Shown piece by piece: positions 2,059 through 25,859 of a stretch of DNA of 32,437 nucleotides. Within the stretch, counting starts at the first letter, position 1; each line of letters begins with the position of its first letter. The notes beneath the pieces were generated by a model, which was not told the origin of the DNA, ran no database searches, and was given only the letters and a program-made list of their open reading frames with translations. The stretch lies in IMG/VR virus record IMGVR_UViG_3300035670_000846, positions 1 to 32,437 of that record; one strand, 5' to 3'. Source of the stretch: a virus. Made by a program: the position numbers and the translations under genes.

Positions 2059-2068
2059 TTTTACCCGG
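2059..2068 (-). promoter_or_regulatory. CCGGGTAAAA element before the collar fibre gene
   Basis: On the coding strand the stop TAA (2071-2069) is followed with no gap by CCGGGTAAAA, then ACAGTTAAC. The start codon lies 32 bases downstream. Candidate promoter; no start-site data. Confidence 0.55.
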
Positions 2069-2666: not shown

Positions 2667-2676
2667 TTTTACCCGG
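2667..2676 (-). promoter_or_regulatory. CCGGGTAAAA element before the 182-residue gene
   Basis: The stop TGA of the 1649-residue gene (2679-2677) is followed directly by CCGGGTAAAA and then CCACTTAAAC. The distance to the next start is 49 bases, the longest of the set. Confidence 0.55.
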
Positions 2677-8201: not shown

Positions 8202-8220
8202 CGCCGAACGGGGACATTAT

Positions 8221-8237
8221 GTAGGGTTTTACCCTAC
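8221..8237 (-). other. Hairpin containing stop codon and GGGTAAAA core
   Basis: GTAGGGTAAAACCCTAC on the coding strand is a perfect 7-bp stem with a 3-base loop. It includes the TAG stop of the 117-residue gene and the whole GGGTAAAA core. This is the only copy where the element is embedded in a hairpin, so it may act as RNA as well as DNA. Confidence 0.5.
8227..8235 (-). promoter_or_regulatory. AGGGTAAAA element before the 175-residue gene
   Basis: The stop TAG (8236-8234) overlaps the element as TAGGGTAAAA. The next start is 25 bases downstream. Confidence 0.5.
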
Positions 8238-8587: not shown

Positions 8588-8589
8588 AA

Positions 8590-9607: not shown

Positions 9608-9610
9608 GGC

Positions 9611-10324
9611 TTACTCCGTCGGCAAACCAGACTCACCAGCTGCCAGACGTTTCTTGACGGATTCGGGCAGACCCGATTCCCAGCCATGCTTTTTCGCGAT
9701 CGAGATAATCTTGCGCATGATGGCCCTAGGATTAGCGGCACGTCCGACAGAGGACCAGGCAGCGGCTACGTCAACGGGGCCAGCAATGGGGAAAGACATG
9801 TCCGGCCCTGCGAATTCTCCGGCAACCTTTCCCTCTTTCAACGCCTTGCGCTTTTCGGTGCTCCATTCACGGTATGACATCTCAGCATATTTTTGGCTGG
9901 CGCAAATAGGGCAACCGGGTCCCTTACAATTATGGTCCTCTTTGAAGGAAGGCAGTGGCATGCTTAGGAGTTCGGAGTCTTGAGAGTCACCCTCGGCAAA
10001 TCCGTATTCGTTCTTCTTCATTTCCTTGAATGAAGACATCCGAGACTTTTTCCGATCGAAGATTTCCTTCATTGCAGACTGACTGTCTGCATTTTCGTTA
10101 TAATCGCGATTGACGAGACTGGCACGCTTCTCGCGATGCTCTGCATTCATTTTTAGAATGTTTTCGTTGTGGTTGCTCATCATGCCATCTGGCCCTGGGC
10201 GCCATTTTTTACCAGATTTATTCATCTCTTCGAGCTGAGCACCACTGATGGCATTGCTTGCATTAATACCTCCACCAACACCGGGTAAAGTTACCGAACT
10301 AAAATCAAAAGAAGAACCGTACAT
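9611..10324 (-). CDS. Protein with Cys cluster and DUF6582-like C-terminus (237 aa)
   Basis: Residues 168-220 (AGEFAGPDMSFPIAGPVDVA, AAWSSVGRAANPRAIMRKII, SIAKKHGW) match a motif I know from phage head proteins and maturation proteases, the DUF6582 type, where F-A-G-P-x-x-S-F-P recurs. Residues 131-141 (HNCKGPGCPIC) give H-x-C-x4-C-x2-C, a possible zinc knuckle. The first 110 residues are polar and charged and may be disordered. The start is the ATG at 10324, seven bases after AGGGGG; a TTG at 10330 in the same frame is less likely. Inferred role: capsid assembly or packaging accessory. No protease residues are visible. Confidence 0.82.
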   Translation of the reverse strand: MYGSSFDFSSVTLPGVGGGINASNAISGAQLEEMNKSGKKWRPGPDGMMSNHNENILKMNAEHREKRASLVNRDYNENADSQSAMKEIFDRKKSRMSSFKEMKKNEYGFAEGDSQDSELLSMPLPSFKEDHNCKGPGCPICASQKYAEMSYREWSTEKRKALKEGKVAGEFAGPDMSFPIAGPVDVAAAWSSVGRAANPRAIMRKIISIAKKHGWESGLPESVKKRLAAGESGLPTE

Positions 10325-10326
10325 GA

Positions 10327-10941
10327 TCAAGCCCCCTGCCAGTCGATTTTTCGAACATTGAATTTTTGAAGCAAGTTATCTGGGGATACGCCTGTAAGAG
10401 TAACAAACTCATCCAGTTCCAGAGGCACCATCTTACCATCTCGTTTGATAGCAAATACGCTGTCATCGGCTTGGGGAAGACTAAAGCCCAAAGCTTGCTG
10501 AATCTTTGTGCGGGCAACGGTTTCGGACTCAGGGTCCTTAGGATTTACTTTACCGCGAATAATAAACCCCTCGGGCAAACAAGGGATAACAGCGTTCCAC
10601 ATTTTACGCAGAAGGAGCCCAGCGCCCACGGTCATTTCTACCGGAAGCTCATAGTGCGTAGACTCATTTACGTAAAACCGCCACATATTGTCTCTAACTA
10701 CGAGAGACACAGTATATTCCTCGCTCTCCGCTGTGAGAATAATTTCAGGACGGTGATGAAGAAGCACCATCGTTTTCTCAGGCGCTACCTTGCGAATCTC
10801 GTTAGCAAATACGGCATGGTCTTCCAGCCTTGCACGGTAGTCAGGATGAGCGTCTACAAGAGTAACGTTGATTTGTGTGGTGAGTTTTGCTTGTAAGTCG
10901 TACTCCTTTTGTATAGTCTCTTGGGAGCGAAGAGATGCCAT
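10327..10941 (-). CDS. Hypothetical protein (204 aa)
   Basis: First gene of the block running down to 8234. It is a soluble alpha/beta-type protein with segments MVLLHHRPEIILTAESEEYT, VSLVVRDNMWRFYVNESTHY and a C-terminal region ending LLQKFNVRKIDWQGA. I recognise no family and see no catalytic motif. The ATG at 10941 follows a 33-base gap with a GGGTAAAA element but no clear Shine-Dalgarno. Its position with small acidic, basic and Cys-motif proteins suggests assembly or packaging rather than replication, which is inference only. Confidence 0.8.
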   Translation of the reverse strand: MASLRSQETIQKEYDLQAKLTTQINVTLVDAHPDYRARLEDHAVFANEIRKVAPEKTMVLLHHRPEIILTAESEEYTVSLVVRDNMWRFYVNESTHYELPVEMTVGAGLLLRKMWNAVIPCLPEGFIIRGKVNPKDPESETVARTKIQQALGFSLPQADDSVFAIKRDGKMVPLELDEFVTLTGVSPDNLLQKFNVRKIDWQGA

Positions 10942-10967
10942 GGTTGCCGAACTTTACCTATATTGCC

Positions 10968-10976
10968 TTTTACCCT
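10968..10976 (-). promoter_or_regulatory. AGGGTAAAA element before the 204-residue gene
   Basis: The stop TAG (10977-10975) overlaps the element as TAGGGTAAAA, followed by GGCAATATAGG. The start lies 26 bases downstream. Confidence 0.55.
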
Positions 10977-11334
10977 ATCCCTCTGGTTCTTCTTCTTCTT
11001 CTTCTTCTTGACTACCTGTGATTTCATTCACAAGGTGCTCAACCTCTTCATCCGTCATTTCTTCAATTTCTCCGTCCCCATCCACAACTTCGTCAGAGAG
11101 ATAGGCATTCGGGTTGAAGGGGGTCTTCAGATCGTCATCTGGGCCTTTACCGCTAGGGTACTTCCACAAGCCCGTATGCTCAATCCACGGGGAAGTATTT
11201 GTCACTACATTAGTTGGCAATCCTGAGTTGTTGGCAATCGTATCTTCGTCAGGAGTGGCAAGTTGCTGTGCATAAGCAGCTCGAAATGCCTCGATGGTTT
11301 CGGCGTTAAAATCGCCCCCAATTCTGTTAGTCAT
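10975..11334 (-). CDS. Acidic-tailed small protein (119 aa)
   Basis: The N-terminal 80 residues contain NAETIEAFRAAYAQQL and SPWIEHTGLWKYPSGKGPDD. The C-terminus is very acidic (DGDGEIEEMTDEEVEHLVNE) and ends in seven consecutive Glu encoded by seven GAA codons (10987-11007). Such acidic tails occur in phage scaffold and DNA-mimic proteins, but I recognise no family here. It follows the 117-residue gene by 9 bases. There is no Shine-Dalgarno, though a GGGTAAGA variant lies in the end of that gene. Confidence 0.78.
   Translation of the reverse strand: MTNRIGGDFNAETIEAFRAAYAQQLATPDEDTIANNSGLPTNVVTNTSPWIEHTGLWKYPSGKGPDDDLKTPFNPNAYLSDEVVDGDGEIEEMTDEEVEHLVNEITGSQEEEEEEEPEG
10987..11007 (-). repeat. 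(GAA)7 trinucleotide run encoding poly-Glu
   Basis: Seven uninterrupted GAA codons on the coding strand. Slippage would change tail length by whole residues without breaking the frame. Confidence 0.85.
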
Positions 11335-11343
11335 GTTGGTTAA

Positions 11344-11697
11344 TTACCGTTTTTTGATCTTACCCGAGGTGTTCTGAAGGAGCTTACTGTTACCCATCAC
11401 TTTCTCCTCGTATTTCTGCACCTCTTTCTTTACATCGACTTTCATCTTTCCTTCTCGGATCATCCGTTCTTTCTTTTCTTTATCTGTCTCCTCTGGTTCT
11501 GGAGGTTCTGGAATCTCCACTTGCTCCTCCATTGCAAGAATATCCTCATCAACGCCTACCGGGTGAATGTCATGTGTTAATTTGTCGAGCATCGCGTCAT
11601 ACTGATCTTTCAACCGACGCCGACAAACTCCCTGAATGTTAACAGCCATTGGGCCACAAGGAAGACGATGCTTCTCAATTTCTTTCTTCGGGTTCAT
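11344..11697 (-). CDS. Charged helical small protein (117 aa)
   Basis: The N-terminal domain has two cysteines (C14, C25) and MAVNIQGVCRRRLKDQYDAM. A Pro/Glu-rich linker (EIPEPPEPEETDKEKKER) and a basic C-terminus ending GKIKKR follow. No family is recognised. GGAG sits six bases before the ATG at 11697, which follows the previous TGA by one base. It belongs to the phoH block and is probably co-translated with its neighbours. Confidence 0.78.
   Translation of the reverse strand: MNPKKEIEKHRLPCGPMAVNIQGVCRRRLKDQYDAMLDKLTHDIHPVGVDEDILAMEEQVEIPEPPEPEETDKEKKERMIREGKMKVDVKKEVQKYEEKVMGNSKLLQNTSGKIKKR
11359..11367 (-). promoter_or_regulatory. Possible variant CGGGTAAGA element inside a gene end
   Basis: CGGGTAAGA lies within the last codons of the 117-residue gene, 24 bases before the ATG at 11334. 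The spacing fits the other elements, but the sequence is coding (GKI), so this may be chance. Confidence 0.2.
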
Positions 11698-11698
11698 G

Positions 11699-12031
11699 TC
11701 AAGCTCCGGTGCGTGTTGGCATCCAGCCGTCGGGATAGGAATGATAGTGAATCCCTTTCTTCTTCTCTTTGCGAGGATTCTTATCCTGGCGATTAGCCTC
11801 TCGCATTGAGGTGACCATAGTGTCTCGCATAATTCTCAAGTTCTCTCTCGGAACAGAACAATGTTTACTGTCTCGGAAAGAGCGATAAGTGTGCGAAACA
11901 TCGGAGGGATCATCATTTTGAAGCATCATATTCCACACACCTAGAGCTTGCGGGTCCGACAAGATGCCCGCCGGCAGTTTGGATTCAATTTCCGCCCTGT
12001 CCGGTCGGGCAAACCTTGTGTCTTTGCGCAT
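11699..12031 (-). CDS. Hypothetical protein downstream of phoH (110 aa)
   Basis: Start ATG at 12031 overlaps the phoH stop as TAATG, a strong sign of coupled translation. The sequence is basic, with ALGVWNMMLQNDDPSDVSHT, a central KHCSVPRENLRIMRDTMVTS and a Lys-rich stretch followed by YHSYPDGWMPTRTGA. Arg and Lys content suggests nucleic-acid contact, but no motif is recognisable. It overlaps nothing else. Confidence 0.78.
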   Translation of the reverse strand: MRKDTRFARPDRAEIESKLPAGILSDPQALGVWNMMLQNDDPSDVSHTYRSFRDSKHCSVPRENLRIMRDTMVTSMREANRQDKNPRKEKKKGIHYHSYPDGWMPTRTGA

Positions 12032-12846
12032 TAGTCGTCGTATCTATCTAGAATGTGAGCGATAACCGAGTTGCGAACAATGTCTTCTTTGGCGAACTCA
12101 ACGATCCCCACCTCCGATAGGTGACGGAGCCGATGAATGGCGTCCACAAGACCGTTTTCACGGCGGAACACTTCCATGTCGGTTTGTTTGGTGTCTCCGA
12201 TTAGCAGAATCTTGGAATCTTTACCTACGCGAGTAAGTACGGTCTTGATCTGTGAAGGAAGGAAGTTCTGCGATTCGTCAACGATAATAAAGGCTTCGTT
12301 GAGGGAGCGTCCGCGAATATCTTCGAGGAGCACTGGCTCAATGATCTTCTTATTCAGAAGGTATTCTGCAGCGCCTTGGGAGCGCATAATGCAAGGTAGG
12401 TTGTCTAAAACAGGAGCAATCAGCGGAGCGATTTTCTCAGATAAATCGCCAGGTAAAGCACCTCTTCCCCGTTGGAACTCGACGCCGACATCGCTACGAA
12501 CATAATAAACTTTGTCGAACTGCCCTTGAGCGATTCCGAAAAGTCCGTAGTGAAGTGCGATGAGAGTTTTGCCAGTTCCGGCATGACCGGAAGCGATAGT
12601 AACGGTGTTGCGCTTGAGTGTATTCCAGAGTTCTTCCTGTCGCCAAGTCAGGAACTTGGGAGGTTGAACATCCATTCCTTTCGAGTAGGATTGTTCTAGC
12701 ATCTGGGCATTCTCAGCGCGACGGTTCTTGCGCTTTTCCTTAGAATTTAACATGAAGGTGAGATGGCAGTCGGTGGGTAATAAAAACTCTTTGCTGCTTA
12801 GAAGGACTACATCCTGCTCACCCCCTTGACTTATATCCTGTGACAT
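12031..12846 (-). CDS. phoH: PhoH-like P-loop ATPase
   Basis: This 271-residue protein has the PhoH core: Walker A GHAGTGKT (87-94), Walker B FIIVDESQN (186-194), GDTKQTD (217-223) and a C-terminal FAKEDIVRNSVIAHIL (251-266). The family is related to the ATPase core of helicase superfamily 1 and is common in marine phages. Its cellular role is still unclear; RNA metabolism and phosphate stress have been proposed. The N-terminal 60 residues, including a basic KEKRKNRRAEN stretch, are outside the core. Start ATG at 12846 with GAGG ten bases upstream, possibly masked by a small hairpin. It heads a four-gene unit down to 10975. Confidence 0.96.
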   Translation of the reverse strand: MSQDISQGGEQDVVLLSSKEFLLPTDCHLTFMLNSKEKRKNRRAENAQMLEQSYSKGMDVQPPKFLTWRQEELWNTLKRNTVTIASGHAGTGKTLIALHYGLFGIAQGQFDKVYYVRSDVGVEFQRGRGALPGDLSEKIAPLIAPVLDNLPCIMRSQGAAEYLLNKKIIEPVLLEDIRGRSLNEAFIIVDESQNFLPSQIKTVLTRVGKDSKILLIGDTKQTDMEVFRRENGLVDAIHRLRHLSEVGIVEFAKEDIVRNSVIAHILDRYDD

Positions 12847-12873
12847 TGGAGGACTGCCTCAGGGACTGACGTA

Positions 12874-12883
12874 TTTTACCCGG
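12874..12883 (-). promoter_or_regulatory. CCGGGTAAAA element before phoH
   Basis: It lies directly after the hairpin at 12882-12897 and 27 bases before the phoH ATG. The nearest stop upstream is the TAG at 12889-12887 of a 23-codon frame, not the TGA at 12926-12924. Confidence 0.55.
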
Positions 12884-12897
12884 ATGCTAGAGCATCC
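12882..12897 (-). other. Hairpin upstream of phoH
   Basis: GGATGCTCTAGCATCC on the coding strand is a perfect 6-bp stem with a 4-base loop. It abuts the GGGTAAAA element and contains the TAG at 12887. No U-tract follows. It may mark the 3' end of the upstream transcript. Confidence 0.45.
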
Positions 12898-12958
12898 ACC
12901 ATTCGTCTTTTTCTAGTAACCAGTCAATGTAGGCGCTCTGCGTAGTCATCCCAGCCAT
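12887..12958 (-). CDS. Possible 23-aa overlapping ORF or frameshifted gene tail
   Basis: In the +1 frame relative to the 62-residue gene, an open stretch starts ATG at 12958 (second ATG at 12949) and reads MAGMTTQSAYIDWLLEKDEW then WML and TAG. The composition looks protein-like. Its stop sits three bases before the GGGTAAAA element, as in the other units, whereas the 62-residue frame stops 37 bases earlier. It is either a tiny overlapping gene or the real C-terminus of the upstream gene reached by a +1 shift. There is no good ribosome site. Confidence 0.35.
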   Translation of the reverse strand: MAGMTTQSAYIDWLLEKDEWWML

Positions 12959-13112
12959 CTTTACCACCACACCATCGTGAGTAACGCTCGGTGCCATGCT
13001 TGGCCGCTTTCTCAAGGTAGCGGTCTGCTGCGAGATCGGTAATCAAAACTCTGGTTCCAAAGTCCTCCTGCATTAAGCTGGGGACATTATCGGGATTAGG
13101 GTTAATAGCCAT
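12924..13112 (-). CDS. Small protein downstream of TerL (62 aa)
   Basis: Starts MAINPNPDNVPSLMQEDFGT and ends GGKDGWDDYAERLH. No domain is recognised; the middle (LITDLAADRYLEKAAKHGTE) is probably helical. I chose the ATG at 13112; the frame stays open to 13139 but only with non-ATG codons inside a hairpin. It lies alone between the terminase block and phoH, preceded by a leader containing TAAAAGTTGC. Its end may be wrong, because a protein-like continuation exists in the +1 frame. Confidence 0.65.
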   Translation of the reverse strand: MAINPNPDNVPSLMQEDFGTRVLITDLAADRYLEKAAKHGTERYSRWCGGKDGWDDYAERLH

Positions 13113-13118
13113 GGTAAT

Positions 13119-13136
13119 CTGTTGAAGGAACAACAG
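13119..13136 (-). other. Leader hairpin before the 62-residue gene
   Basis: CTGTTG and CAACAG form a perfect 6-bp stem with a 6-base loop, ending seven bases before the ATG at 13112, where a Shine-Dalgarno would normally lie. None is visible. Confidence 0.4.
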
Positions 13137-13145
13137 CAACTTTTA
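13136..13145 (-). promoter_or_regulatory. Variant ATAAAAGTTGC element after TerL
   Basis: The coding strand reads CTATAAAATAAAAGTTGCTG. The TAAAAGTTGCT part equals the right half of the element at 16616, although the GGG is absent. TATAAAATA also resembles the T4 late promoter TATAAATA. The start lies about 28 bases downstream of the TAAAA. Confidence 0.35.
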
Positions 13146-13152
13146 TTTTATA

Positions 13153-13178
13153 GAGTGGTGGTTACCAGATCACCACTC
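13153..13178 (-). other. Hairpin at the end of terL
   Basis: GAGTGGTG and CACCACTC form a perfect 8-bp stem with a 10-base loop, beginning within the terL stop codon. It is followed on the minus strand by TATAAAATAAAAG rather than a U-tract. A weak terminator or 3' stabiliser is likely. Confidence 0.5.
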
Positions 13179-14928
13179 ACATATCGAGATCCCAGCCAAT
13201 ATTACGCTGCCCACTCCGAATACCTCGCAAGAATGAAGAGCGAGGATCTGCTTCCTGACTTACTGCGTCATAGTCAGGGTCATTAAAAGCATGGTCAGCA
13301 GGGAACATTCGTAAACGACCTCTAGACAAATTGCTAAACACGTTTTTATCTTGAAAGCCAGGTCTTGTCAATTCTCCTACAAAACGTTTGTTCTGAATGA
13401 TGGAATCTTGCAGCCCTTTATCAACTTTATCCAGCTTCATGGAAAAATAGGTCAAAGCCCAAGTAAAAGCGTCTGTCCTATCGTCATGTTTCGTAAAAGG
13501 AAAAGCTGTCAGTTCTTTTACAAACGGGTCGATCCATTCTCCCTCCAGGAAACGGACTCGATTGAACTCCATCAAAGGGGCAACCGCTTGAAGTCGCACC
13601 GTCTTGGACTTCAAAGGTTTCATTTCCTCAATGGGAATCTTCGCCTCTTTTTTCAACATTTGGATCAAAGACTGACCGGAAGCTGCTTTCTCAATGCAAA
13701 GAACCCGAGCCTCATAATAAGAATACAGGTGTTTTACCTTGGCAATGAGGTCTGGGAACCCCAGCCGCCCTGTAATAATTTCTCTGATATAGACTATTCC
13801 CGGGGTGGAGTGAGAAATGGAGGCTACGCAAATAGCCGTTTCGTCGGCCATTTCTTTTTCAGAAAACGCACAGTCAACAGCGAGCCAAGTCAAGTCATAG
13901 TTGACGTAAGGGTCCTGCTCCACACGGCATATCCAGCTATCCTTAATAATCTGCCCTTCTGCCGCAACCGGATTACCTTGGTACAGAGCAGCAAACGCAA
14001 ACGAACCCATGGTCTTTTTCTGGGCCATAAGCATGTCGACGGTAAAGGCGGTATTGCTCGGCCAATGAGACTCACCTAGATCGCGCTCCAGTGGGTCTTC
14101 CGCTCTCTGCTCTGCAGTCTCGATTAAGCCCGCAATATTTACCCAGCGCCAGCCATTTGGATTCTCAATCTCGTCATATACACCGTCTGCCTCCAGCAAT
14201 ACTCCATGCAAATCATGTGAATGGAATCGCGTAGCAATTACCATTTGACACCAGTTGTTGGTGCGTCGAGTGGATGCCTGCTCACCCCACCAGCTTTCAA
14301 GAGCTTCAAGGGCAGCAGTAGAAGTCGAATCCTTTAGAGGGTCGTCCACAATCATTGCCCCCACGCCTGGACTAGAGATATTTGTAGTCCCTGCGGTAAA
14401 ACCCGTTAACACGCCGCCAACAGAAGTGGGGAGGATGTATCCGCCACCGAGCATATCATACTTGGAATCCCGGGAAAAACCTTTCCATTCCGGAAAAATC
14501 TTAGTGAATTCCGGCATCTTCAGGAAACTGATTGCGTCCTTGTGAAATTTACCAGACAGTTGCTGACCATAAGAAGCGATAATGTGTTGAGTCTGTTGAT
14601 CACGGCCTAAAAGCCATGCCACAAACATCGAAGCCATCATCGATTTACCGGAACGAGGAGGACATGAAACGATTAGACGCCGATAACGTTTTTTCGCTAA
14701 ATCCTCAAATGCCGACCCAATAATCTCATGGAACGCGACTACTTTCAAATCGCCTTTCTTCATAATGTCAGCAAACGCGAGGAAACAATCTCGCGCAGCT
14801 CGGTATTTATACTCCTCAATTACAGAAGCAGGAGCCTCCATAACGACTAGTTCTTGAATACCTCGAATGTATTTTCGCCAGCTACTATGTTCATCAAGCA
14901 AGCTGGCTTTGGTGATGATAGGTCGCAT
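13177..14928 (-). CDS. terL: Terminase large subunit (packaging ATPase and nuclease)
   Basis: The protein has 583 residues. The ATPase domain has Walker A CPPRSGKS (89-96), Walker B AMIVDDP (191-197) and a coupling motif ATRFH (232-236). The C-terminal RNase H-fold nuclease has LAVDCAF with D352, CIEKAASG with E413, and HDDRTDA (481-487) supplying the third acid. It cuts concatemeric DNA and drives it into the prohead at the portal. The fold and motif spacing resemble the Terminase_6C-type proteins of many siphoviruses and myoviruses more than T4 gp17. The last ~80 residues (after about 500) are an extra tail. Start ATG at 14928, one base after the previous TGA, so translation is coupled to the candidate small subunit. 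Confidence 0.96.
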   Translation of the reverse strand: MRPIITKASLLDEHSSWRKYIRGIQELVVMEAPASVIEEYKYRAARDCFLAFADIMKKGDLKVVAFHEIIGSAFEDLAKKRYRRLIVSCPPRSGKSMMASMFVAWLLGRDQQTQHIIASYGQQLSGKFHKDAISFLKMPEFTKIFPEWKGFSRDSKYDMLGGGYILPTSVGGVLTGFTAGTTNISSPGVGAMIVDDPLKDSTSTAALEALESWWGEQASTRRTNNWCQMVIATRFHSHDLHGVLLEADGVYDEIENPNGWRWVNIAGLIETAEQRAEDPLERDLGESHWPSNTAFTVDMLMAQKKTMGSFAFAALYQGNPVAAEGQIIKDSWICRVEQDPYVNYDLTWLAVDCAFSEKEMADETAICVASISHSTPGIVYIREIITGRLGFPDLIAKVKHLYSYYEARVLCIEKAASGQSLIQMLKKEAKIPIEEMKPLKSKTVRLQAVAPLMEFNRVRFLEGEWIDPFVKELTAFPFTKHDDRTDAFTWALTYFSMKLDKVDKGLQDSIIQNKRFVGELTRPGFQDKNVFSNLSRGRLRMFPADHAFNDPDYDAVSQEADPRSSFLRGIRSGQRNIGWDLDM

Positions 14929-14929
14929 A

Positions 14930-15214
14930 TCAGAAGTTCGAGATGCGCTTCAAAAGCTCTTCAACCTTGCCATCGTATTCTTTTGCCAGAGACTCCTCTG
15001 ATGGGGACTCTTTGGCAGTCAAAACCACAATATCTTCGGTAATCTCACGATGTGCTTTAACAGAAGCTGAAAAAATCTGCACGAGGTCGCGAGTTGAACA
15101 CTCCGACATTTGATCTTGCAGGAGACCGATGGCCTCATTAGCCACTTTAAGAGCTTCTTCTGCTAGAAACTCTTTTTGACGAACAATTTGATCTTTTGCA
15201 GTAGAGTCTGACAT
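14930..15214 (-). CDS. Candidate terminase small subunit (94 aa)
   Basis: This short helical protein lies immediately upstream of terL, the usual place of the small subunit. Residues 1-60 (QIVRQKEFLAEEALKVANEA, LLQDQMSECSTRDLVQIFSA) and the C-terminus (KVEELLKRISNF) look like oligomerising helices. No clear helix-turn-helix is visible, and 94 residues is short for the family. Start ATG at 15214 with AGAGG eight bases upstream, overlapping the previous stop as TAATG. The small-subunit assignment rests on position and size. Confidence 0.6.
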   Translation of the reverse strand: MSDSTAKDQIVRQKEFLAEEALKVANEAIGLLQDQMSECSTRDLVQIFSASVKAHREITEDIVVLTAKESPSEESLAKEYDGKVEELLKRISNF

Positions 15215-15372
15215 TAGTAGAACCTCTTTTTACATTTGGCACAGCCTCCTGGAGGAGGCGGGGGATTTCCTTTGTAGTTTTGTAAACTGCGTAGAATACG
15301 CTTTGCCAGGTCGGTGTTTCCTGCTTTCATTGCGGCGTGATAGTTTTGCCAGAGCTGCTGAGCTGACTGCAT
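15214..15372 (-). CDS. Small helical protein with C-terminal CxxC (52 aa)
   Basis: I chose the ATG at 15372, which overlaps the stop of the 406-residue gene as TAATG. A longer version from 15432 would overlap that gene by 60 bases. The product starts MQSAQQLWQNYHAAMKAGNT, has a Pro run (PPPPP, 37-41) and ends GGCAKCKKRFY with a CxxC pair. A single CxxC is not enough for a zinc site alone, but it could form one in a dimer. It is in the terminase unit; its function is not recognised. Confidence 0.78.
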   Translation of the reverse strand: MQSAQQLWQNYHAAMKAGNTDLAKRILRSLQNYKGNPPPPPGGCAKCKKRFY

Positions 15373-16592
15373 TAGCAAGGTTGCGACGGGGTATTGAGGC
15401 CATCTGTGCATGGAAGGCACCCAAGCTTCCACAAAGAGTTCACAGAAGCCAACTCAAACGTGCCCTCTAACATCCAACCCTTACCCACCGGGGATTGCCC
15501 CACGTAATAGAAGCGTCCCTTTGGGGTTTGGATGAATGTTTGCATCTGCACTCCAATCAAGGCACCCCCGTCAATGGAAAGTTGCGGAGAATCCGGATTG
15601 AGGGGGTCCACATACAGGAATTGATACCCTCCGAGAACCACCGCAAACTCCCCAAAGTTCATACTCTGATACCAGCTCGCGTCTTTGGTTGCTTTCGCAG
15701 AAATTGCTCCTACTTTGTTCACAGTATCGTTCCAAAGTTCCACCGCATACCGAGCCAGTTTTTTGCCAGTGTTGCAGTAGAAAACTTCTCTAATGGGCTC
15801 TTTGGTGTTGGCGTCAAAGATTGTCACAACAAGGCGGCCATCTTCAGTGTAACTATTGTTAGAGAGTAGATAAATCGGTTGACCGAGAGGATCCTCCAGG
15901 AAGACGCAATCGGGGTCACAAATAAAGACCCAGTTACCGCTTTGTGTCAGTTCATTACTCCATTTTATCCCGTAACACGCATCGTAGTCTTCCGGGGGCT
16001 GACCGTCGCAGTCATACGCAGGAACGTAGATGTCTCCGGTGGTCTCGTCAAGAATGCCCCCAAGCGGGAGTTTTGCTTCGACGCCAAGGGCTGGGAAGAT
16101 CTGACGACAATCGCCACGTTGGACGCAAGGATCCAACGCAATGTAGGGCAGAGCCTCTTCGATAATCAGCTGATAGACTTGAGTGTAGGTATATTGAGAC
16201 TCGTCACTGAGGCCGGTAAAATCTTCGCTGACGCAAACAAAAGGTTCAATGACCTGAACATATGCGCCGCCAGGGACAGAACCATTCAGGGTGATGAACG
16301 CACCCGTCAGCAACTGAGTGGCGAAATCGTGCCCCGAGGAAGTTAAATAATTCTGACACGAAAAATTTAGCTCGAAACGCATCGAGCGCTCGAATACCAT
16401 CGGCACACGGTTCTTCACCGTATTGTTAGCACCAGTGTAGCGAACAACAATATTATTCGTCTGAGAGACAACACCCTCCTTGTCAATCACATCTGCAAGG
16501 CGCAGCACATTCACGCCAAGCGGAATCAGTGGACTCGCAATTAGCGCGTCGCACATATATTGCTCGATGCGCGTAATGGTACTCAGCTCCAA
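15372..16592 (-). CDS. Putative neck or tail-terminator-like virion protein (406 aa)
   Basis: Residues 1-150 (TITRIEQYMCDALIASPLIP, a V-V-R-Y strand, MRFELNFSCQN, QLLTGAFITLNG, YTYTQVYQLIIEE) have the layout of Mu gp37-like and tail-terminator proteins: an N-terminal helix, beta-sheet, then an outer strand. The remaining 250 residues are beta-rich with several cysteines and no recognised domain. The start is uncertain. The in-frame candidates upstream of the first internal ATG are TTG at 16592, CTG, and ATT at 16577, the last with GGAG nine bases upstream. I report TTG. The gene follows an intrinsic terminator and a GGGTAAAA element, so it starts a new unit with the terminase genes. Confidence 0.8.
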   Translation of the reverse strand: MELSTITRIEQYMCDALIASPLIPLGVNVLRLADVIDKEGVVSQTNNIVVRYTGANNTVKNRVPMVFERSMRFELNFSCQNYLTSSGHDFATQLLTGAFITLNGSVPGGAYVQVIEPFVCVSEDFTGLSDESQYTYTQVYQLIIEEALPYIALDPCVQRGDCRQIFPALGVEAKLPLGGILDETTGDIYVPAYDCDGQPPEDYDACYGIKWSNELTQSGNWVFICDPDCVFLEDPLGQPIYLLSNNSYTEDGRLVVTIFDANTKEPIREVFYCNTGKKLARYAVELWNDTVNKVGAISAKATKDASWYQSMNFGEFAVVLGGYQFLYVDPLNPDSPQLSIDGGALIGVQMQTFIQTPKGRFYYVGQSPVGKGWMLEGTFELASVNSLWKLGCLPCTDGLNTPSQPC

Positions 16593-16615
16593 GTTACTTC
16601 ATGCCAGATAGCAAC

Positions 16616-16625
16616 TTTTACCCGG
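16616..16625 (-). promoter_or_regulatory. CCGGGTAAAAGTTGC element after a terminator
   Basis: This copy comes after an intrinsic terminator rather than at a stop codon. The coding strand reads GCCCGGGTAAAAGTTGCTAT, 23 bases before the TTG at 16592. It is the strongest single argument that the element is a promoter. Confidence 0.65.
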
Positions 16626-16629
16626 GCAC

Positions 16630-16656
16630 AAAAAGACCCCCGCCGAAGCGAGGGTC
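16630..16656 (-). terminator. Intrinsic (Rho-independent) terminator
   Basis: GACCCTCGC, loop TTCG, GCGGGGGTC, then TTTTT on the coding strand. The 9-bp GC-rich stem has one G-U wobble, a stable UUCG tetraloop and a five-U tail. It lies 19 bases after the stop of the 320-residue fibre gene. The plus-strand orientation has no U-tract. Confidence 0.92.
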
Positions 16657-16675
16657 CGGAGAGTTAGAGTAATAA

Positions 16676-17638
16676 TCAGAACTGTTGCTGGTTACCGCCA
16701 CCACCAAAGGTACCAAGATCGATACCGTTTTCAATGTCGGCAATCCGAGCACTCAGAGCAGCCTCAGCAGCCAGAGCGCGGGATTCCTCAGCGGAGACAG
16801 CGGCGGAGTTAGCAGCGTCACCTGCAACGCGGGCAGAGGCCTCGGCATCGATGTTGGCCTGCAGAGTTACATCGGCAGCAACACGGGCAGAAGCTTCGCT
16901 GTCAATGTTAGATTGCAGGGTGCTGTCGGCAGATGCACGGGAAGCAGCCTCAGCATCAATGTTGGACTGCAGGGTGTTGTCGGCAGCGGCACGAGCAGCG
17001 GCTTCGCTGTCGATGTTACCTTGGAGTACACCTTCGGCAGCCAGGGCCCGGGCTTGCTCAGCATCAATAGCGGCTTGCAGGACGGCTTCAGCAGCCTCGG
17101 CACGGGCAACCTCAGCGGCCAAGTCAGCAGCCAGAGAAGCTTCGGCAGCCTGAGCGCGAGCAACCTCAGCAGTCAGATCGGCGGTCAGGACTCCTTCCGC
17201 GGCTTGGGCGCGAGCAATTTCGGCACCCAGAGAGGCATTGAGGGAGGCCTCAGCGGACTGGGCGCGAGCAACTTCGGCATCCAGGTTGGTTTGAACAGTG
17301 GCAACCGAGTTGGTGACGGTGGTGACGAAGTTTGCGTCGTCGCCGATAGCAGCGGCCAGCTCGTTCAGAGTGTTGAGCAGTTCGGGGGCGGAGTCGACCA
17401 GATCAGCGATCTTCTGATCGGTGTAAGCGCTGGAAGATACCAGGCTCAGGTCGCTCTCGAAGTAGCCTTCGCCCAGGAGGACGGACTCGGTGGTGCCGTC
17501 AAGGCGCTTGATGGTGTCAGTGCCGTCACCAACAAACAGTTTTTTGTCAGGCAGGTTGAAGGCGATTTGACCAGCAGCCAGAGAGACGGGCGAGGTGCCA
17601 GCGTTCAGACTGCGAAGAAACTGAAGATTGTTAACCAT
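16676..17638 (-). CDS. Fibre protein with ten 18-residue helical repeats (320 aa)
   Basis: Residues 3-50 are the shared N-terminal module (LQFLRSLNAG, LAAGQIAFNLPDKKLFVGDG). Residues 84-115 (APELLNTLNELAAAIGDDAN, FVTTVTN) form a motif common in phage tail fibres. Residues 122-301 are ten repeats of exactly 18 residues, such as EVARAQAAEASLAADLAA, very Ala- and Glu-rich. The C-terminus is a Gly/Gln-rich tail (GGGGNQQQF). Inferred role: a trimeric helical rod, perhaps a whisker or fibre shaft, anchored by the N-terminus. The ATG at 17638 follows an AT-rich leader (TTTTAAATAAA) without Shine-Dalgarno. A single intrinsic terminator ends the unit. Confidence 0.9.
   Translation of the reverse strand: MVNNLQFLRSLNAGTSPVSLAAGQIAFNLPDKKLFVGDGTDTIKRLDGTTESVLLGEGYFESDLSLVSSSAYTDQKIADLVDSAPELLNTLNELAAAIGDDANFVTTVTNSVATVQTNLDAEVARAQSAEASLNASLGAEIARAQAAEGVLTADLTAEVARAQAAEASLAADLAAEVARAEAAEAVLQAAIDAEQARALAAEGVLQGNIDSEAAARAAADNTLQSNIDAEAASRASADSTLQSNIDSEASARVAADVTLQANIDAEASARVAGDAANSAAVSAEESRALAAEAALSARIADIENGIDLGTFGGGGNQQQF
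16736..17275 (-). repeat. Ten tandem 54-bp repeats (18-residue units)
   Basis: All ten units are exactly 54 bp, each beginning with a Glu codon. Early units read E-x-A-R-A-x-A-A-E-x-x-L and late units E-A-x-A-R-x-A-A-D-x-T-L-Q-x-N-I-D. Neighbouring units are more alike than distant ones, which suggests growth by local duplication. Confidence 0.9.
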
Positions 17639-17675
17639 TTTATTTAAAAGCTATGGGTATCGTTGGTTACGTAAC

Positions 17676-17683
17676 TTTTACCT
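17676..17683 (-). promoter_or_regulatory. Variant AGGTAAAAGTTAC element before the 320-residue gene
   Basis: The stop TGA (17685-17683) overlaps the element as TGAGGTAAAAGTTACG. One G of the core is replaced by A, but the AGTTA extension is kept. The start is 37 bases downstream. Confidence 0.45.
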
Positions 17684-17943
17684 CAGGAGCGGGTAGAAGA
17701 GGAGGACCCCCCACTACTGCGCGGATAGAAAATGCCGAAATCAGGATTGAAGTCGGCCATATCAAGAACGAGTTTGCCGTTCTCGACTTTGACAACCCCG
17801 AGGTCTGTTCCATCTGGAATAACTTCGGGGATGGCGAGTACCGGAGTAGGTAAGGGAAGAGGCTCCTGAGGGAGGATAGCTTCCCCACCTACGTATCTAA
17901 CTCCCTGCGCTTGTTGAAGACGAATCTGAGAAACAGAGGCCAT
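17683..17943 (-). CDS. Small Pro-rich protein between two fibre genes (86 aa)
   Basis: The N-terminus (MASVSQIRLQQAQGVRYVGG) is followed by a Pro-rich linker (PQEPLPLPTPVLAIPEVIPD), a beta-like segment (LGVVKVENGKLVLDMADFNP) and a Ser-rich tail (SSGGSSSSTRS). No family is recognised. Its place between two fibre genes with related N-termini suggests a small fibre-binding or virion adaptor protein. Start ATG at 17943; AAGG two bases upstream is too close to be a good ribosome site. Confidence 0.72.
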   Translation of the reverse strand: MASVSQIRLQQAQGVRYVGGEAILPQEPLPLPTPVLAIPEVIPDGTDLGVVKVENGKLVLDMADFNPDFGIFYPRSSGGSSSSTRS

Positions 17944-17974
17944 TGCCTTATTAGCGAGAGTACCTTTTGTTTAA

Positions 17975-17992
17975 GGCGCCCCGAAGGGCGCC
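17975..17992 (-). terminator. GC-rich UUCG hairpin after the 1535-aa fibre gene
   Basis: GGCGCCC, loop TTCG, GGGCGCC is a perfect 7-bp stem in the 55-base gap, followed by TTAAAC instead of a U-run. This is the only long gap without a GGGTAAAA element. Either a weak terminator or a 3' stabiliser; the next gene may depend on read-through. Confidence 0.55.
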
Positions 17993-17998
17993 CAATTA

Positions 17999-20900
17999 TC
18001 ACCAAGCGGTTGCATCCCAGGCAACACGTTGCCAGCGGCCGCCAGTGTACATATAGAAGTAGGTTGCGTCGGAGGCGATTTGACCCTGCGTGCCAGCATC
18101 TGTAGATGCAGTGGGAGCTGTAACTTGCGGGAGGGAGGAGGACCAGGCTGAGGCAGCACCCGTACCGGAAGATGTAAGAATCTGCCCAGCGGTACCGTAG
18201 CTCGGAGTGGTTCCAACACCGACTGCACCGTTCTCATTGATTTGCAGCTTGATATTGCCTGCACCGTCAGAGAGAACAACATTATTGGCCAGGGTTGCAG
18301 TTCCCTGATAGCCTCCTACTAGAGTGTTGCAAGCTCCAGTTGTGAGAAGCAGGCCCGAGCCGACCCCGACAAGTGTGTTTGAAGCTCCCGTGGTAATTGC
18401 TCCGCCAGCATTAGCTCCGACAATGGTGTTGCAGCTGGAGGTAAGATTATCGCCTGCAGACCAGCCCACCAGTGTGTTATCAGCGCCAGTAACAACATTA
18501 TTGCCAGTCAGATAACCGAGGGCCGTATTACGGGCACCAGATGTTAGAACGTCGAGAGCACCAAATCCTACCGCAACAGCGCCATTGGCGCCAAAGGTGG
18601 AGACGCCAAGAGAACCATTACCTATTGCAACAGCGTTACAGATAGTAGTTGCAGTGCCCCCTGCATTGACTCCAACGAAAACGTTGCCGTCTCCGCTAAC
18701 ACTATTGCCCGCACAAGAGCCGATGGCGGTGTTACTTACCCCCCCAGTACCTGTGCTAATCGCTTTGAATCCGACGGCGGTGTTATTGGTGGAAGTTGTG
18801 ACTGCAGAAAGAGCACCACAACCAATGGCCGTATTATTGGATCCAAGAGTAACCGAACACGCCGCAGCGGCACCAACAGCAACGTTGCTATCGCCTGTGG
18901 TAGCCGCCCCTAGGGAAAAGATTCCTACACCAACGTTGTTGGTTCCCGTCGTAATAGCGTCTGAAGATTGATACCCAACAGCAACATTATTGCTTGCGGT
19001 TGCAGAAGAGTTACCCAGGGCACCGTGGCCTACAGCAGTGTTTTGGGAACCAGTTCCGTAGTTTGCAAAAGAGCCTAGGGCAACGTTGTAATCGCCTCCA
19101 CTTATGTTTGTGCCCGCTTGGTAGCCTACGGATACGTTGTAAAAGCCGGTTGAGGTTGCTGAGTCGCCAGCCTCAAATCCGAGCGCTGTAGTGTAAGGGG
19201 CTTCACTGGATCCACAAGTAATTCCCTTTAAGAATGCACCTGGAGCGGTAGTCCACTTAATGCCGCCAATGCAGGTGCTATCGGCAACCAGGAACTGATT
19301 ATCCGTGCCAACTGTAAGGGCGGAATAAGTGGATACTCCTGTGCCTACCAACAGCACGCCTTGGCCAGTGTAAGCGGAGCAAGGAACACAAGCAAGAGAC
19401 AGAGTGCACCAGGAGGGGGCGGCAACGGTGCCGTTTGATGCAAGGAACTGACCGGCGGTGCCGTAGTTAGTACCATCTGGAGACCAAGCGCCAGAGTCAT
19501 TGGCCTGGAACTTGATTGTGGTACCAGCGGCAAGAATAAGGTTGCCAACCAGGCTGGTATTTCCAGACACATCCCCAATAATGGTGTTGTTAAATCCTGT
19601 GGTAATGCTGTCGCCCGCGTTGGCGCCGAGCAGGATGTTGGTGCCGCCTAACGTCAGAGCGCATCCAGCGTTAAATCCAAGCAGAGTGTTTACGGAGCCC
19701 GAAGTCAAAGAGTCTCCCGCACTGTAACCGATCGCTGTGTTAGAGGCTCCGCTGGTCAGGCTGCACAAAGCCCCAAATCCAACAGCAACTTGGCAACCTG
19801 CAGTCAACCCGCCGCTAAGGGCAAAACTACCTAAAGCGACTGAATTTCCTGTCGCACCAGAGGAGTCGCCAGCAAAAGACCCGACAAAGGTGTTAGTACC
19901 GCCCGTGGTAGAGCCGAGACCGGCATTCTTACCCACGAACACGTTGTCATTGCCAGTGGTTACGCCCTTCCCAGCCTCAACACCCACAGCCACGTTTGCG
20001 TTACCCCCGCCACCACCAGCAAGGGCGCACCACCCGATAGCAGTGTTTGTATTCTGAGTTGTAGCACCGCCGAGAGCCAGATTACCGATGGCAACGTTAC
20101 GGAAACCGGTTGTCAAAGAGTCACCTGCCTGATAACCAACTACGGTGTTATCTCCACCTGTGGTAATGGCGGTGCCAGCATCGTATCCAATGAGTGTGTT
20201 ATTGATAGCAGAAGTGACTGAGTCTCCAGCGTTCGTACCAAGGGCAGTGTTGAATGGTGTGGCAGAACAAGTGTAACCTTGTAGTGCAGTGCCCCATTTA
20301 AGGCCTGTGGCGCAGGCGGTGTCAACAAGCAGAACCTGGCCATTAGTGCCAGATGTAAGAGTGCTGTATGTGCCGATTCCGGTACCGACCACTAAATCCC
20401 CGAGCGCAGTGAAGCAGGCGTCAGGGACGTAACAAGCGTTGCCCCACTCCAAGCCAGTGGCGCAGGCAGAGTTTGCCAGGAGAACCTGGCCATTTGTGCC
20501 GACCGTTAGAGCGCTGTAGGTTCCAGCAGCGGTACCACCAAGGATATTGCCTTTCGCAAGGAAAGAAGAGCAAGGAACAGCAGCTTGAGCAATAGTGCAA
20601 GCAGACACACCTTTGTCATAAGCGGTCTTGGCGGCGTTTGCGGTAGCGGCTTCGGTGGTAGAGGTGGAGATTACCGTATCGTTAAGCTGCACTGCACCAG
20701 ACTGTGTTGTGGATGCAGCGTCAATGCCAACGATTGGGTTTTGGGGATCGGTGTTATCAACGGTAACCGGAGAAGTTGCGGTGACGGAAGTAACATCCCC
20801 AGGAGTGTCAGTTACCCACTCGAGACCCGTTGCACAAGTACTATTGGCAATGAGCACTTGGCCATCGGTACCGACGGGGAGCGCAGTTGGGGTAGCGCCA

Positions 20901-22606
20901 GCTCCACCGACGACAATGTCGCCGACAGCTGTGATGGTGGCACAAGGAATTGCTGCGGCACCAATATCATAAGCAGCCTTGACAGCAGTTGCAGAAGCAA
21001 TCAGGTTACTGTCGGTTGTTGTAACACTGTCAGTGATTTTATCCTGCAGTGAGTTCGGAGTGACCGCTTCTGTGTCCGAGGTACCGGTATAGGTAACAGC
21101 AGTGTCAGCAAGCTGAACAATGCCAGCAGTGGTGTAAGACGCGGACTGGGGGCGAGAGCCTACACCAAGATATTGCCAAGAAGTGCCATTAGAAAGGAAC
21201 CAGTCACCGTTCTGAGCATTGTAAGGGCCACCACCACCCGGAGGGCTGTAAGAACCGCCAATAGTAACCAGAACGTAATAATCGGCGTTTCCGGCAGCAG
21301 GAGCAGGAAGTCCTGAGCCAGCAACAAATCCAGCGCCAGCACCTTGAGTGGTTACGGAGTCGAGCAGCCCCGTTGTAGCATTCAGGGAACCTGCCAGAGT
21401 AACATTGCTTGCCAGGGTGATGGCATCAATCTGAGACTGCAGATCTGCGCCCGCCCGAGCCGTAAGGGCCTCATCAGTAGCACTACTCGTCAGTGTATCA
21501 TTCAGCTGGACCACACCTTTATTGGAGGTTGTGGAGTTTAGGATGCTAATAACCCCCGCAGCAATCTGAATGTTGGTGCCAATCTGGACAATACCTTTTT
21601 GGGCAGCAGTCGCATCTTGAATGCCGGACACAGGAAAGATTTGGCCGGCGGCAAAAGTGATGGTGCCGGTCATTGTGCCGCCGGAGCGAGCTAAGGCAGC
21701 ATTGGCGAGATCGTAAGTGAATCGGAGTGCGTTAGCAGACGCAGCCAGAGTGCTAGACGTGGAAGTGGTGGAGTCACTAATGCCGTTGATGATACCATTG
21801 CCAGTTGCCGCGAAGGAAATATCGCCAGCACCAGTAAAGGTGATATTGTTGCCAGCCTGAACGTTGATGGCGCGGGAGACAATCGTACCCGTCATCGTGC
21901 CACCGGCCTTCGGCAGAGCGGCGTTCGCAATGCTTAGGGCAGAGTTGGCGGTGGAGTTGGCAGTGTTTGCAATCGCAGTTGTGGCAGCGAGGCCAGCATC
22001 CAAGTCGTCAATTGCACCCTGAACCGTAGGAGTCAGACCTGTGACGGTATTATCGTAGATAACCTCGGAAGCACTCGGATAAGCGTAGGCTGCGCCCTTC
22101 ACCCATTCAGTGGTAAAGAAGTAAAGTCCCTCGTAGACGTCGTCAGGGAGACCAGTCACGATGGTAACATCGCCCTCATCTGGGGAGGCTACGCCGATAG
22201 CCGCAGTGATTTTAGCGCTGGTTGTGGCGCCAGGGGCAGCAGCAACGTCAGCGTTAGTGATAACGTAAACCTGGTTACCACCACCACCACCACCGCCGGA
22301 GGTCCAAATGGGGTGATTGAGAGCGGTGCTCCAAGTCAGAACTTGTTGATCGGTAGGAACGTCGCCCCAATAGCTAGGGTTGGCAACATAGTAATCGCCG
22401 AGGGATGCGAAATCCATCGGCATTGCATACCAGCCTTCTCCAGGAACGCCAGGAGTTTGTGTGCCATCAAAGGCGGTCTTAAAGTTAGTGCCATCGCCTA
22501 CATACAGAACCTTGTCCGTGATGTTAAAGGCAATTTGACCGGGGAGCAATGAGGCGGGCTCAACACCAGTGCCCACTGCGCGAAGATTTTGAACGGTAAG
22601 AGCCAT
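17999..22606 (-). CDS. Giant tail fibre/adhesin with beta-roll repeats (1535 aa)
   Basis: I chose the ATG at 22606 (MALTVQNLRAVGTG), five bases after the previous stop. An ORF from 22660 would overlap that gene. Residues 4-50 are the shared module (LLPGQIAFNITDKVLYVGDG). Residues 200-660 hold fibre repeats of the GVVQLND...T...A type (335-390, 495-550, 635-665). Four copies of a VVGTG..TYS.LT.GTNGQV...CATGLEW unit lie near 562-597, 684-721, 735-771 and 1082-1118. Two blocks, about 786-1015 and 1138-1434, contain some 14 and 18 repeats of N-T-A-I-G-Y-x-A-G type, the left-handed beta-roll seen in trimeric adhesins. The end is FYMYTGGRWQRVAW. Role: host-contact fibre. No intramolecular chaperone domain is visible. 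Confidence 0.92.
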   Translation of the reverse strand: MALTVQNLRAVGTGVEPASLLPGQIAFNITDKVLYVGDGTNFKTAFDGTQTPGVPGEGWYAMPMDFASLGDYYVANPSYWGDVPTDQQVLTWSTALNHPIWTSGGGGGGGNQVYVITNADVAAAPGATTSAKITAAIGVASPDEGDVTIVTGLPDDVYEGLYFFTTEWVKGAAYAYPSASEVIYDNTVTGLTPTVQGAIDDLDAGLAATTAIANTANSTANSALSIANAALPKAGGTMTGTIVSRAINVQAGNNITFTGAGDISFAATGNGIINGISDSTTSTSSTLAASANALRFTYDLANAALARSGGTMTGTITFAAGQIFPVSGIQDATAAQKGIVQIGTNIQIAAGVISILNSTTSNKGVVQLNDTLTSSATDEALTARAGADLQSQIDAITLASNVTLAGSLNATTGLLDSVTTQGAGAGFVAGSGLPAPAAGNADYYVLVTIGGSYSPPGGGGPYNAQNGDWFLSNGTSWQYLGVGSRPQSASYTTAGIVQLADTAVTYTGTSDTEAVTPNSLQDKITDSVTTTDSNLIASATAVKAAYDIGAAAIPCATITAVGDIVVGGAGATPTALPVGTDGQVLIANSTCATGLEWVTDTPGDVTSVTATSPVTVDNTDPQNPIVGIDAASTTQSGAVQLNDTVISTSTTEAATANAAKTAYDKGVSACTIAQAAVPCSSFLAKGNILGGTAAGTYSALTVGTNGQVLLANSACATGLEWGNACYVPDACFTALGDLVVGTGIGTYSTLTSGTNGQVLLVDTACATGLKWGTALQGYTCSATPFNTALGTNAGDSVTSAINNTLIGYDAGTAITTGGDNTVVGYQAGDSLTTGFRNVAIGNLALGGATTQNTNTAIGWCALAGGGGGNANVAVGVEAGKGVTTGNDNVFVGKNAGLGSTTGGTNTFVGSFAGDSSGATGNSVALGSFALSGGLTAGCQVAVGFGALCSLTSGASNTAIGYSAGDSLTSGSVNTLLGFNAGCALTLGGTNILLGANAGDSITTGFNNTIIGDVSGNTSLVGNLILAAGTTIKFQANDSGAWSPDGTNYGTAGQFLASNGTVAAPSWCTLSLACVPCSAYTGQGVLLVGTGVSTYSALTVGTDNQFLVADSTCIGGIKWTTAPGAFLKGITCGSSEAPYTTALGFEAGDSATSTGFYNVSVGYQAGTNISGGDYNVALGSFANYGTGSQNTAVGHGALGNSSATASNNVAVGYQSSDAITTGTNNVGVGIFSLGAATTGDSNVAVGAAAACSVTLGSNNTAIGCGALSAVTTSTNNTAVGFKAISTGTGGVSNTAIGSCAGNSVSGDGNVFVGVNAGGTATTICNAVAIGNGSLGVSTFGANGAVAVGFGALDVLTSGARNTALGYLTGNNVVTGADNTLVGWSAGDNLTSSCNTIVGANAGGAITTGASNTLVGVGSGLLLTTGACNTLVGGYQGTATLANNVVLSDGAGNIKLQINENGAVGVGTTPSYGTAGQILTSSGTGAASAWSSSLPQVTAPTASTDAGTQGQIASDATYFYMYTGGRWQRVAWDATAW
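18305..19195 (-). repeat. Second beta-roll block, ~18 repeats
   Basis: Units of about 16-18 residues with the core N-(T/N)-x-(A/V)-(V/I)-G-x-x-(A/S), for example NTAIGCGALSAVTTSTN and NTLVGWSAGDNLTSSC. Corresponds to about residues 1138-1434 of the fibre. Confidence 0.82.
19562..20251 (-). repeat. First beta-roll block, ~14 repeats
   Basis: Units such as NTVVGYQAGDSLTTGFR and NTLLGFNAGCALTLGGT, about 51 bp each. The block is separated from the second one by a GTYSALT-type linker unit. Corresponds to about residues 786-1015. Confidence 0.82.
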
Positions 22607-22610
22607 GGTA

Positions 22611-23081
22611 TTAAACGATAAGTCCGGAATCAATGGAAAGGACCTCACCATTGAGGTCAAGTTGAATGCCGTTGCCAGCCCTCATGTACCCTTCCTGCAC
22701 AAGGTAAGCAACCAATTGGTCTTGAAAATAGCCAACGGTGACGAAGGCGGAGGGGTTGTTGGGGATTTCGTACTGAGCGTAGATTGGGCCCTGGAAAACA
22801 CCGCCGTATTCGTTGATATTATCCTGCGGATATGGTACCACGGATACCCACTGACCTCCATTCAGGTCGGTGTACCAGATGTTAAGGTTCGAGTTATTGC
22901 TATCGTACCAGAGAGAGCCTTGAATGGGCTTCGGTGGTGGCGATACACTGACGTAGACGGGAGCAGATGTTGGAGAGGAAACTGCCACGGCTGTCCACTG
23001 AGTGCCGTTCCATCGCCACGTACGCCCATTGGACGTATATATCTGTCCCACCGTTGGGCTAGGTGGAAAGGAGTATGCCAT
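22611..23081 (-). CDS. Small adhesin-like virion protein (156 aa)
   Basis: Residues 6-31 (PPSPTVGQIYTSNGRTWRWN, GTQWTAV) are a short beta unit common in phage fibre proteins. Residues 55-80 hold a GSLWYDS...NGGQWV hairpin unit like those elsewhere in the window. The C-terminus GNGIQLDLNGEVLSIDSGLI closely resembles the end of the 1649-residue protein. Immediately upstream of the giant fibre gene, it may be its attachment partner. The ATG at 23081 has AGGA directly adjacent, too close to be a normal ribosome site. Confidence 0.82.
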   Translation of the reverse strand: MAYSFPPSPTVGQIYTSNGRTWRWNGTQWTAVAVSSPTSAPVYVSVSPPPKPIQGSLWYDSNNSNLNIWYTDLNGGQWVSVVPYPQDNINEYGGVFQGPIYAQYEIPNNPSAFVTVGYFQDQLVAYLVQEGYMRAGNGIQLDLNGEVLSIDSGLIV

Positions 23082-23105
23082 TCCTGTTAGGCTTACATCA
23101 GTTGG

Positions 23106-23115
23106 TTTTACCCGC
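23106..23115 (-). promoter_or_regulatory. GCGGGTAAAACC element before the 156-residue gene
   Basis: It lies two bases after the stop TGA (23120-23118) and 24 bases before the start. Sequence on the coding strand: GGCGGGTAAAACCAACTG. Confidence 0.55.
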
Positions 23116-23117
23116 CG

Positions 23118-24200: not shown

Positions 24201-24225
24201 GACGCAGCAACCAGAATATAACTGC

Positions 24226-24235
24226 TTTTACCCGG
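24226..24235 (-). promoter_or_regulatory. CCGGGTAAAAGCAGTTATATT element before the gp36-like gene
   Basis: One base after the stop TAA (24239-24237), 25 bases before the ATG. The AGTTATATT continuation overlaps the other copies' AGTTA. Confidence 0.58.
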
Positions 24236-24236
24236 T

Positions 24237-24722: not shown

Positions 24723-24725
24723 TTG

Positions 24726-25526: not shown

Positions 25527-25528
25527 AG

Positions 25529-25828: not shown

Positions 25829-25849
25829 AGATGTTGCTCGTTTCCACGG

Positions 25850-25859
25850 TTTTACCCGC
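25850..25859 (-). promoter_or_regulatory. GCGGGTAAAACC element before the Pro-rich gene
   Basis: The stop TAA of the 1101-residue gene (25862-25860) is followed without gap by GCGGGTAAAACC. The start codon lies 21 bases downstream, the shortest distance of the set. Confidence 0.55.

Follow-up and report, generated by a model that had tools for sequence, protein, structure and literature searches.

An intrinsic terminator and a putative -10-only promoter element separate fibre and packaging genes in an Aokuangvirus-like cyanophage

Results

Organisation of the locus

The window analysed here is a virus record of 32,437 bases whose main genes lie on the minus strand (Table 1). Along that strand stand, in order, a gene for a 320-residue fibre protein, a hairpin and its U-tract, the bases GUGCCC, the octamer GGGTAAAA and a gene for a 406-residue protein (g406), after which come small genes and the gene for the terminase large subunit (TerL).

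The hairpin reads GGACCCTCGC-TTCG-GCGGGGGTCT in DNA and GGACCCUCGC-UUCG-GCGGGGGUCU in RNA. Its stem has ten pairs including a terminal G-U pair, or nine without it, and UUUU and then GUG stand 3' of the stem, so that the G+C-rich stem, short loop and trailing U-tract of an intrinsic terminator are all present. The RNA fold of positions 16680-16610 has an energy of -24.9 kcal/mol (z = -2.7). A terminator scan of positions 8000-27000 gave 19 terminator-like sites where 19.1 are expected by chance, and its count is therefore uninformative, but the present hairpin stands first among the 19 listed and is the sole one with ten pairs, seven of them G-C. A reading made earlier from the sequence alone had proposed an intrinsic terminator at the end of the fibre unit; our analysis confirms both the structure and its place after the fibre gene. 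The same reading put the element four bases after the U-tract, which holds for the run of C, whereas the octamer itself begins 7 nt past the last U (UUUU-GUGCCC-GGGTAAAA; in context CCCGGGTAAAAGTTGC, positions 16626-16611, minus strand). The fibre stop codon ends 53 nt upstream of the octamer, close to the distance of 50 bases given before, and stop-codon context is most unlikely to explain the element. From the end of the octamer to the TTG start of g406 there are 23 nt. When searched at the DNA level in phage records the site gave no match, and Rfam and tRNA scans of the window found nothing. A sigma-70 promoter scan returned 18 sites against 15 expected and was set aside as uninformative.

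Table 1. Features of the window discussed in the text
Feature	Position	Strand	Remarks
Tail-fibre gene, 320 aa	16676..17638	minus	PHROG tail-fibre matches; terminated by the hairpin
AGGTAAAA, variant element upstream of fibre gene	17676..17683	minus	
Intrinsic terminator hairpin	16634..16657	minus	U-tract to 16630; 10 pairs, UUCG loop; other hairpins at the same place in relatives
GGGTAAAA, putative -10-type promoter element	16616..16623	minus	Proposed at about -14 to -7; most relatives keep it some 31 nt ahead of the g406 start
Inferred transcription start	16609..16609	minus	A preceded by T; from base preference in family and S-CBWM1
g406, virion-region gene, 406 aa	15372..16592	minus	First gene after the element, starting at TTG; S-CBWM1 homologue is gp096; aligned ATG/TTG starts in homologues
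TerL gene	13177..14928	minus	In the unit downstream of the element
GGGTAAAA before PhoH-like gene	12874..12881	minus	Element in 62/66 homologues
GGGTAAGA, one-mismatch variant before 119-aa gene	11358..11365	minus	Element before 32/39 homologues
GGGTAAAA before 204-aa gene (g204)	10968..10975	minus	9/10 homologues
GGGTAAAA before 175-aa gene (g175)	8227..8234	minus	12/12 homologues
GGGTAAAA before 182-aa tail gene	2667..2674	minus	Element before only 1/10 homologues
GGGTAAAA before 675-aa collar-fibre gene	2059..2066	minus	Window copy count
GGGTAAAA before 156-aa gene (g156)	23106..23113	minus	14/14 homologues
GGGTAAAA before 360-aa gene (g360)	24226..24233	minus	9/11 homologues
GGGTAAAA before 99-aa gene	25850..25857	minus	Window copy count

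Abundance and strand bias of the octamer

GGGTAAAA occurs nine times in the window, always on the minus (coding) strand. Dinucleotide shuffles give an expectation of 0.98 for both strands together, with a maximum of 4 in 100 shuffles, and an order-4 Markov model gives 1.7 for the sense strand (maximum 6 in 100). As a comparison set we used 80 related loci from IMG/VR, most of them much closer to the window than is the isolate Synechococcus phage S-CBWM1. The window and these relatives together hold 280 sense copies and no antisense copy, a second set with an S-CBWM1 stretch in and the window out gives 282:0, and GGGTAAAA is the most over-represented octamer in the relatives' loci. The sense to antisense ratio is 33:1 in S-CBWM1, and larger contigs are one-sided from end to end (29:0, 0:19, 0:18, 16:0 and 31:0); one small contig of 18.6 kb has 1:8. 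Because the family loci are related, these counts overstate independence; removal of similar sites leaves 116-145 non-redundant family sites, and S-CBWM1 stands as a separate lineage. Two one-mismatch forms share the bias, AGGTAAAA with 51:10 in the family and 9:1 in S-CBWM1, and GGGTAAGA with 29:0 in the family. Both lie in promoter position within the window and are probably working variants. The copy before g175 sits within a perfect small palindrome, GTAGGGTTTTACCCTAC (positions 8221-8237).

Position relative to genes and terminators

In S-CBWM1 the distance from the end of the element to the next annotated start has a median of 27 nt and mostly falls between 22 and 31 nt, while the distance from the previous stop codon varies from overlap to more than 300 nt. 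A few elements are far from any start and some overlap stop codons. Across relatives the element precedes the same genes, including g406 (43 of 53) and the PhoH-like gene, g175, g156, g204 and g360 (fractions in Table 1), and genes internal to a unit go without it (TerL 0 of 73, g107 0 of 21, g110 1 of 44). When 54 sequences of the g406 locus are lined up, the element, where present, is mostly 28-32 nt before the start; the sequence further upstream ranges from assorted hairpins to no terminator at all, and the element is kept. Since it is retained before homologues of the downstream gene whatever lies upstream, it is tied to that gene. Oriented, at a set distance upstream of genes and linked to the gene that follows, the element has the general properties of a promoter. 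At position 19573 of S-CBWM1 it precedes a tRNA-Gly gene (tRNA at 19612), which argues against a translation signal. Another copy, at 24755, is just ahead of tRNA-Thr, and some phage tRNAs may come from the same promoter class.

The pairing of terminator and element recurs among the relatives. Of the 280 sites, 46 have a hairpin and U-tract no more than 70 nt upstream, compared with 22 of 3000 positions drawn at random (Fisher p ~1e-34, with sites treated as independent), and a control shifted by 140-600 nt yields a terminator at 0-4 of about 270 positions. The hairpins differ in sequence between relatives, with forms beginning GGACCCTCGC as well as GGGCACCTTCGGGTGCCC, AACCCTCCTTCGGGAGGGTT, GAGGCGCCTTCGGGCGCCTC and others. 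A start signal placed right after a stop signal fits a promoter and not an RNA processing site.

Several further features of these upstream regions were noted. Upstream of the g406 start in many relatives (for instance L005, L007 and L032), a second small palindrome, TTTTGCAAAGCAAAA, lies between the terminator and GGGTAAAA and lengthens the U-tract. Four sites in S-CBWM1 (NC_048106; 26662, 65887, 126638 and 135703) carry a repeat with ACTGTCCCA just before GGGTAAAA, three of them in a longer form, GTGAAAGATT..TCACTGTCCCA or similar, and this is possibly a further regulatory repeat. An extra gene is present between the terminator-element pair and g406 in L012 (7664-8338), L001, L008, L013, L027 and L030. 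The L012 copy encodes 224 residues with no Pfam match and ends in ...CPGEGWVRGRIKKWS; L036, L037 and L070 seem to keep just a scrap of its 3' end. Our guess is that this gene came and went in the manner of a mobile endonuclease-type insert.

Shape of the element and predicted start

Beyond the octamer, the bases T-A-(A/T) are favoured at about the sixth to eighth position after the element in both the family and S-CBWM1, with A six bases past it in 63% of the 116 non-redundant family sites and 52% of the 33 S-CBWM1 sites. Pyrimidines are favoured just after the element in both lineages, and in the family C or A tends to stand immediately ahead of it. The sites of neither lineage showed a -35 signal. 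Counting the favoured A as +1 places GGGTAAAA at about -14 to -7, the -10 region, and from this we infer a start at 16609 in the window, in line with the position near 16610 guessed from the sequence alone.

As to timing, no copy of GGGTAAAA occurs at 27.0-47.5 kb of S-CBWM1 against 4.9 expected (p ~0.005, for a block picked after looking), a region of small unknown genes, topoisomerase and DNA polymerase, and many copies stand before structural genes. The units opened by the element are therefore likely to be late ones.

Candidate sigma factors

S-CBWM1 encodes two proteins of the sigma-70 family, gp055 and gp045. The gp055-type sigma is 49% identical between S-CBWM1 and the 112-kb relative G007, and an IMG/VR search with it led to G007 and two further contigs. 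The two contigs reached through the sigma alone, with the element ignored in their choice, hold GGGTAAAA at 9:0 and 0:13. A gp55-like sigma, as expected of a T4-type late-promoter system, is found in S-CBWM1, G007, G013 and G014. No sigma gene is among the window genes examined; the window is a fragment, and the link to the sigma comes from its relatives. The T4-like cyanophages S-N03 and S-CREM2, with sigma factors 25-29% identical to this type, have two and no copies of GGGTAAAA, and S-TIM5 has 8:4 with no clear bias. From sequence and a structure model, the gp055-type protein comprises sigma region 2 and a C-terminal helix-turn-helix-like part; the model is of moderate confidence (pLDDT 69) and matches the sigma-70 family with poor overall superposition. 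The protein is distantly related to the gp55-type sigma found in T4-like cyanophages. Searches for a multi-subunit RNA polymerase gene, in which positive controls gave matches, found none, and neither did a search for a single-subunit (T7-type) polymerase run without a positive control.

Discussion

Taken together, the site comprises an ordinary terminator and, after it, what is very probably a -10-only phage promoter specific to this lineage. We hold with considerable confidence that GGGTAAAA is the core of a phage-specific promoter of this kind, opening many structural (late) units in Aokuangvirus-like cyanophages, that transcription is terminated and restarted at the present site, and that host RNA polymerase carrying a gp055-type sigma is the most likely reader. 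Having transcribed the fibre gene, RNA polymerase would come off at the hairpin and U-tract, and initiation from the element just downstream would begin a new transcript near 16609, about 17 nt of leader preceding the TTG codon of g406 and its downstream terminase unit. As the element sits right after the hairpin, the fibre gene and the packaging genes would be copied as separate units. The order of terminator and then promoter had been suggested by the sequence-only reading, and gains support from the sense bias, the start-codon spacing, the linkage to the downstream gene, the recurrent pairs, the tRNA sites and the favoured A. Its further suggestion that the fibre genes are set apart from the terminase genes likewise stands, with the element dividing the fibre gene from g406, the small genes and the terminase unit. 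What the comparison adds is that the element is found throughout the lineage, has no -35 box and goes with a phage sigma factor.

An oriented octamer at this distance from start codons could also act in RNA, as a site of nuclease processing or regulator binding in the 5' leader, and the sense-strand bias and fixed spacing would suit an mRNA element too. This is very improbable: directly after a terminator there would be little RNA without a new start, the element stands ahead of a tRNA gene and is missing before operon-internal genes, and its GGG-TA-AAA shape, together with the A found six bases later, resembles a -10 element and +1. That the octamer instead reflects stop-codon context, or is another strand-oriented word such as a Chi-like, primase or packaging site, is scarcely credible. 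The TAA within it is often a stop codon (8 of 33 copies in S-CBWM1), but most copies, like the one studied here, lie away from stops, and they are placed at a set distance before the starts of particular genes and not scattered through genes.

If GGGTAAAA is a promoter, as we prefer, its reader has to be considered separately. Cyanobacterial promoters of the group 3 sigma factor SigF have GGTAA at -12, in common with GGGTAAAA (PMC2758279), which makes this host sigma a candidate. However, the SigF core promoter as mapped includes a second box, TAGGC at -32, and 0 of 313 sites have it in the right region; the family has no conserved -35-region signal, and the phages bring their own sigma. Host SigF would thus be a weaker candidate than the gp055-type sigma, and we regard it as very improbable. 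The second phage sigma, of the S-CBWM1 gp045 type, is a sigma-70 family protein as well, and it might read the element, or another phage activator might be needed. We consider this unlikely, as no gp045 homologue separate from the gp055 type was found in G007, which has 31:0 elements in a contig that is possibly incomplete; gp055 would be the more probable reader of the two.

If correct, GGGTAAAA provides a nearly exact sequence rule for the starts of transcription units in a mostly uncultured group of cyanophages, and operons and late genes could therefore be read from sequence alone. With a new promoter word paired to one particular sigma family, it becomes possible to test how promoter recognition of the gp55 type evolved, and the arrangement of terminator and element suggests insulation between the packaging genes and the variable fibre gene. 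We see about even chances for a broader picture of late transcription throughout this mostly uncultured lineage: the new -10-only promoter GGGTAAAA would be recognised by a gp55-like sigma that has diverged and carries a C-terminal helix-turn-helix of its own, and fibre modules would be insulated by terminator-promoter pairs exchangeable as units. No earlier report of the motif was found in the literature searched, which did not extend to the S-CBWM1 genome paper; the octamer string occurs in 666 papers, and the 40 matches listed were mostly primers or unrelated.

Comparison with known systems

The closest isolate found is S-CBWM1 (Aokuangvirus), whose TerL is 53% identical to that of the window and which has the same element in the same orientation and spacing. 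Unlike in the window, the element at the homologous site has no terminator and shares bases with the stop codon that ends the gene before it.

Late promoters of T4, TATAAATA, are read by gp55 together with gp33 and gp45. Each is a lone box of eight bases that lies roughly one helical turn ahead of the start (PMC2988020), and the late promoters of cyanophage S-PM2 are NATAAATA (PMC2984593). Like GGGTAAAA, these are eight-base boxes without a -35 box that stand before structural genes (PMC2988020, PMC2984593), and T4 and the phages with GGGTAAAA alike have a sigma of the phrog_351 group. The boxes themselves differ, as the consensus in T4 and S-PM2 is (N/T)ATAAATA and not GGGTAAAA. TATAAATA is absent from S-CBWM1 and occurs 0-1 times per strand in the relatives' contigs. 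It was tried as a second promoter; in TerL loci it is enriched at 36:4, yet of the six copies inspected, five were the same TerL coding stretch, and the candidate was dropped. The sigma factors differ as well, the gp055 type having 25-29% identity to that of T4-like cyanophages and in addition its C-terminal helix-turn-helix-like part. Ma-LMM01 is likewise a cyanophage with staged transcription, but its late genes are expressed without gp55, from SigA-like promoters (PMC5780444). Against this background, it is very likely that the GGGTAAAA system represents a new form of the simple switch for late genes known in phage T4.
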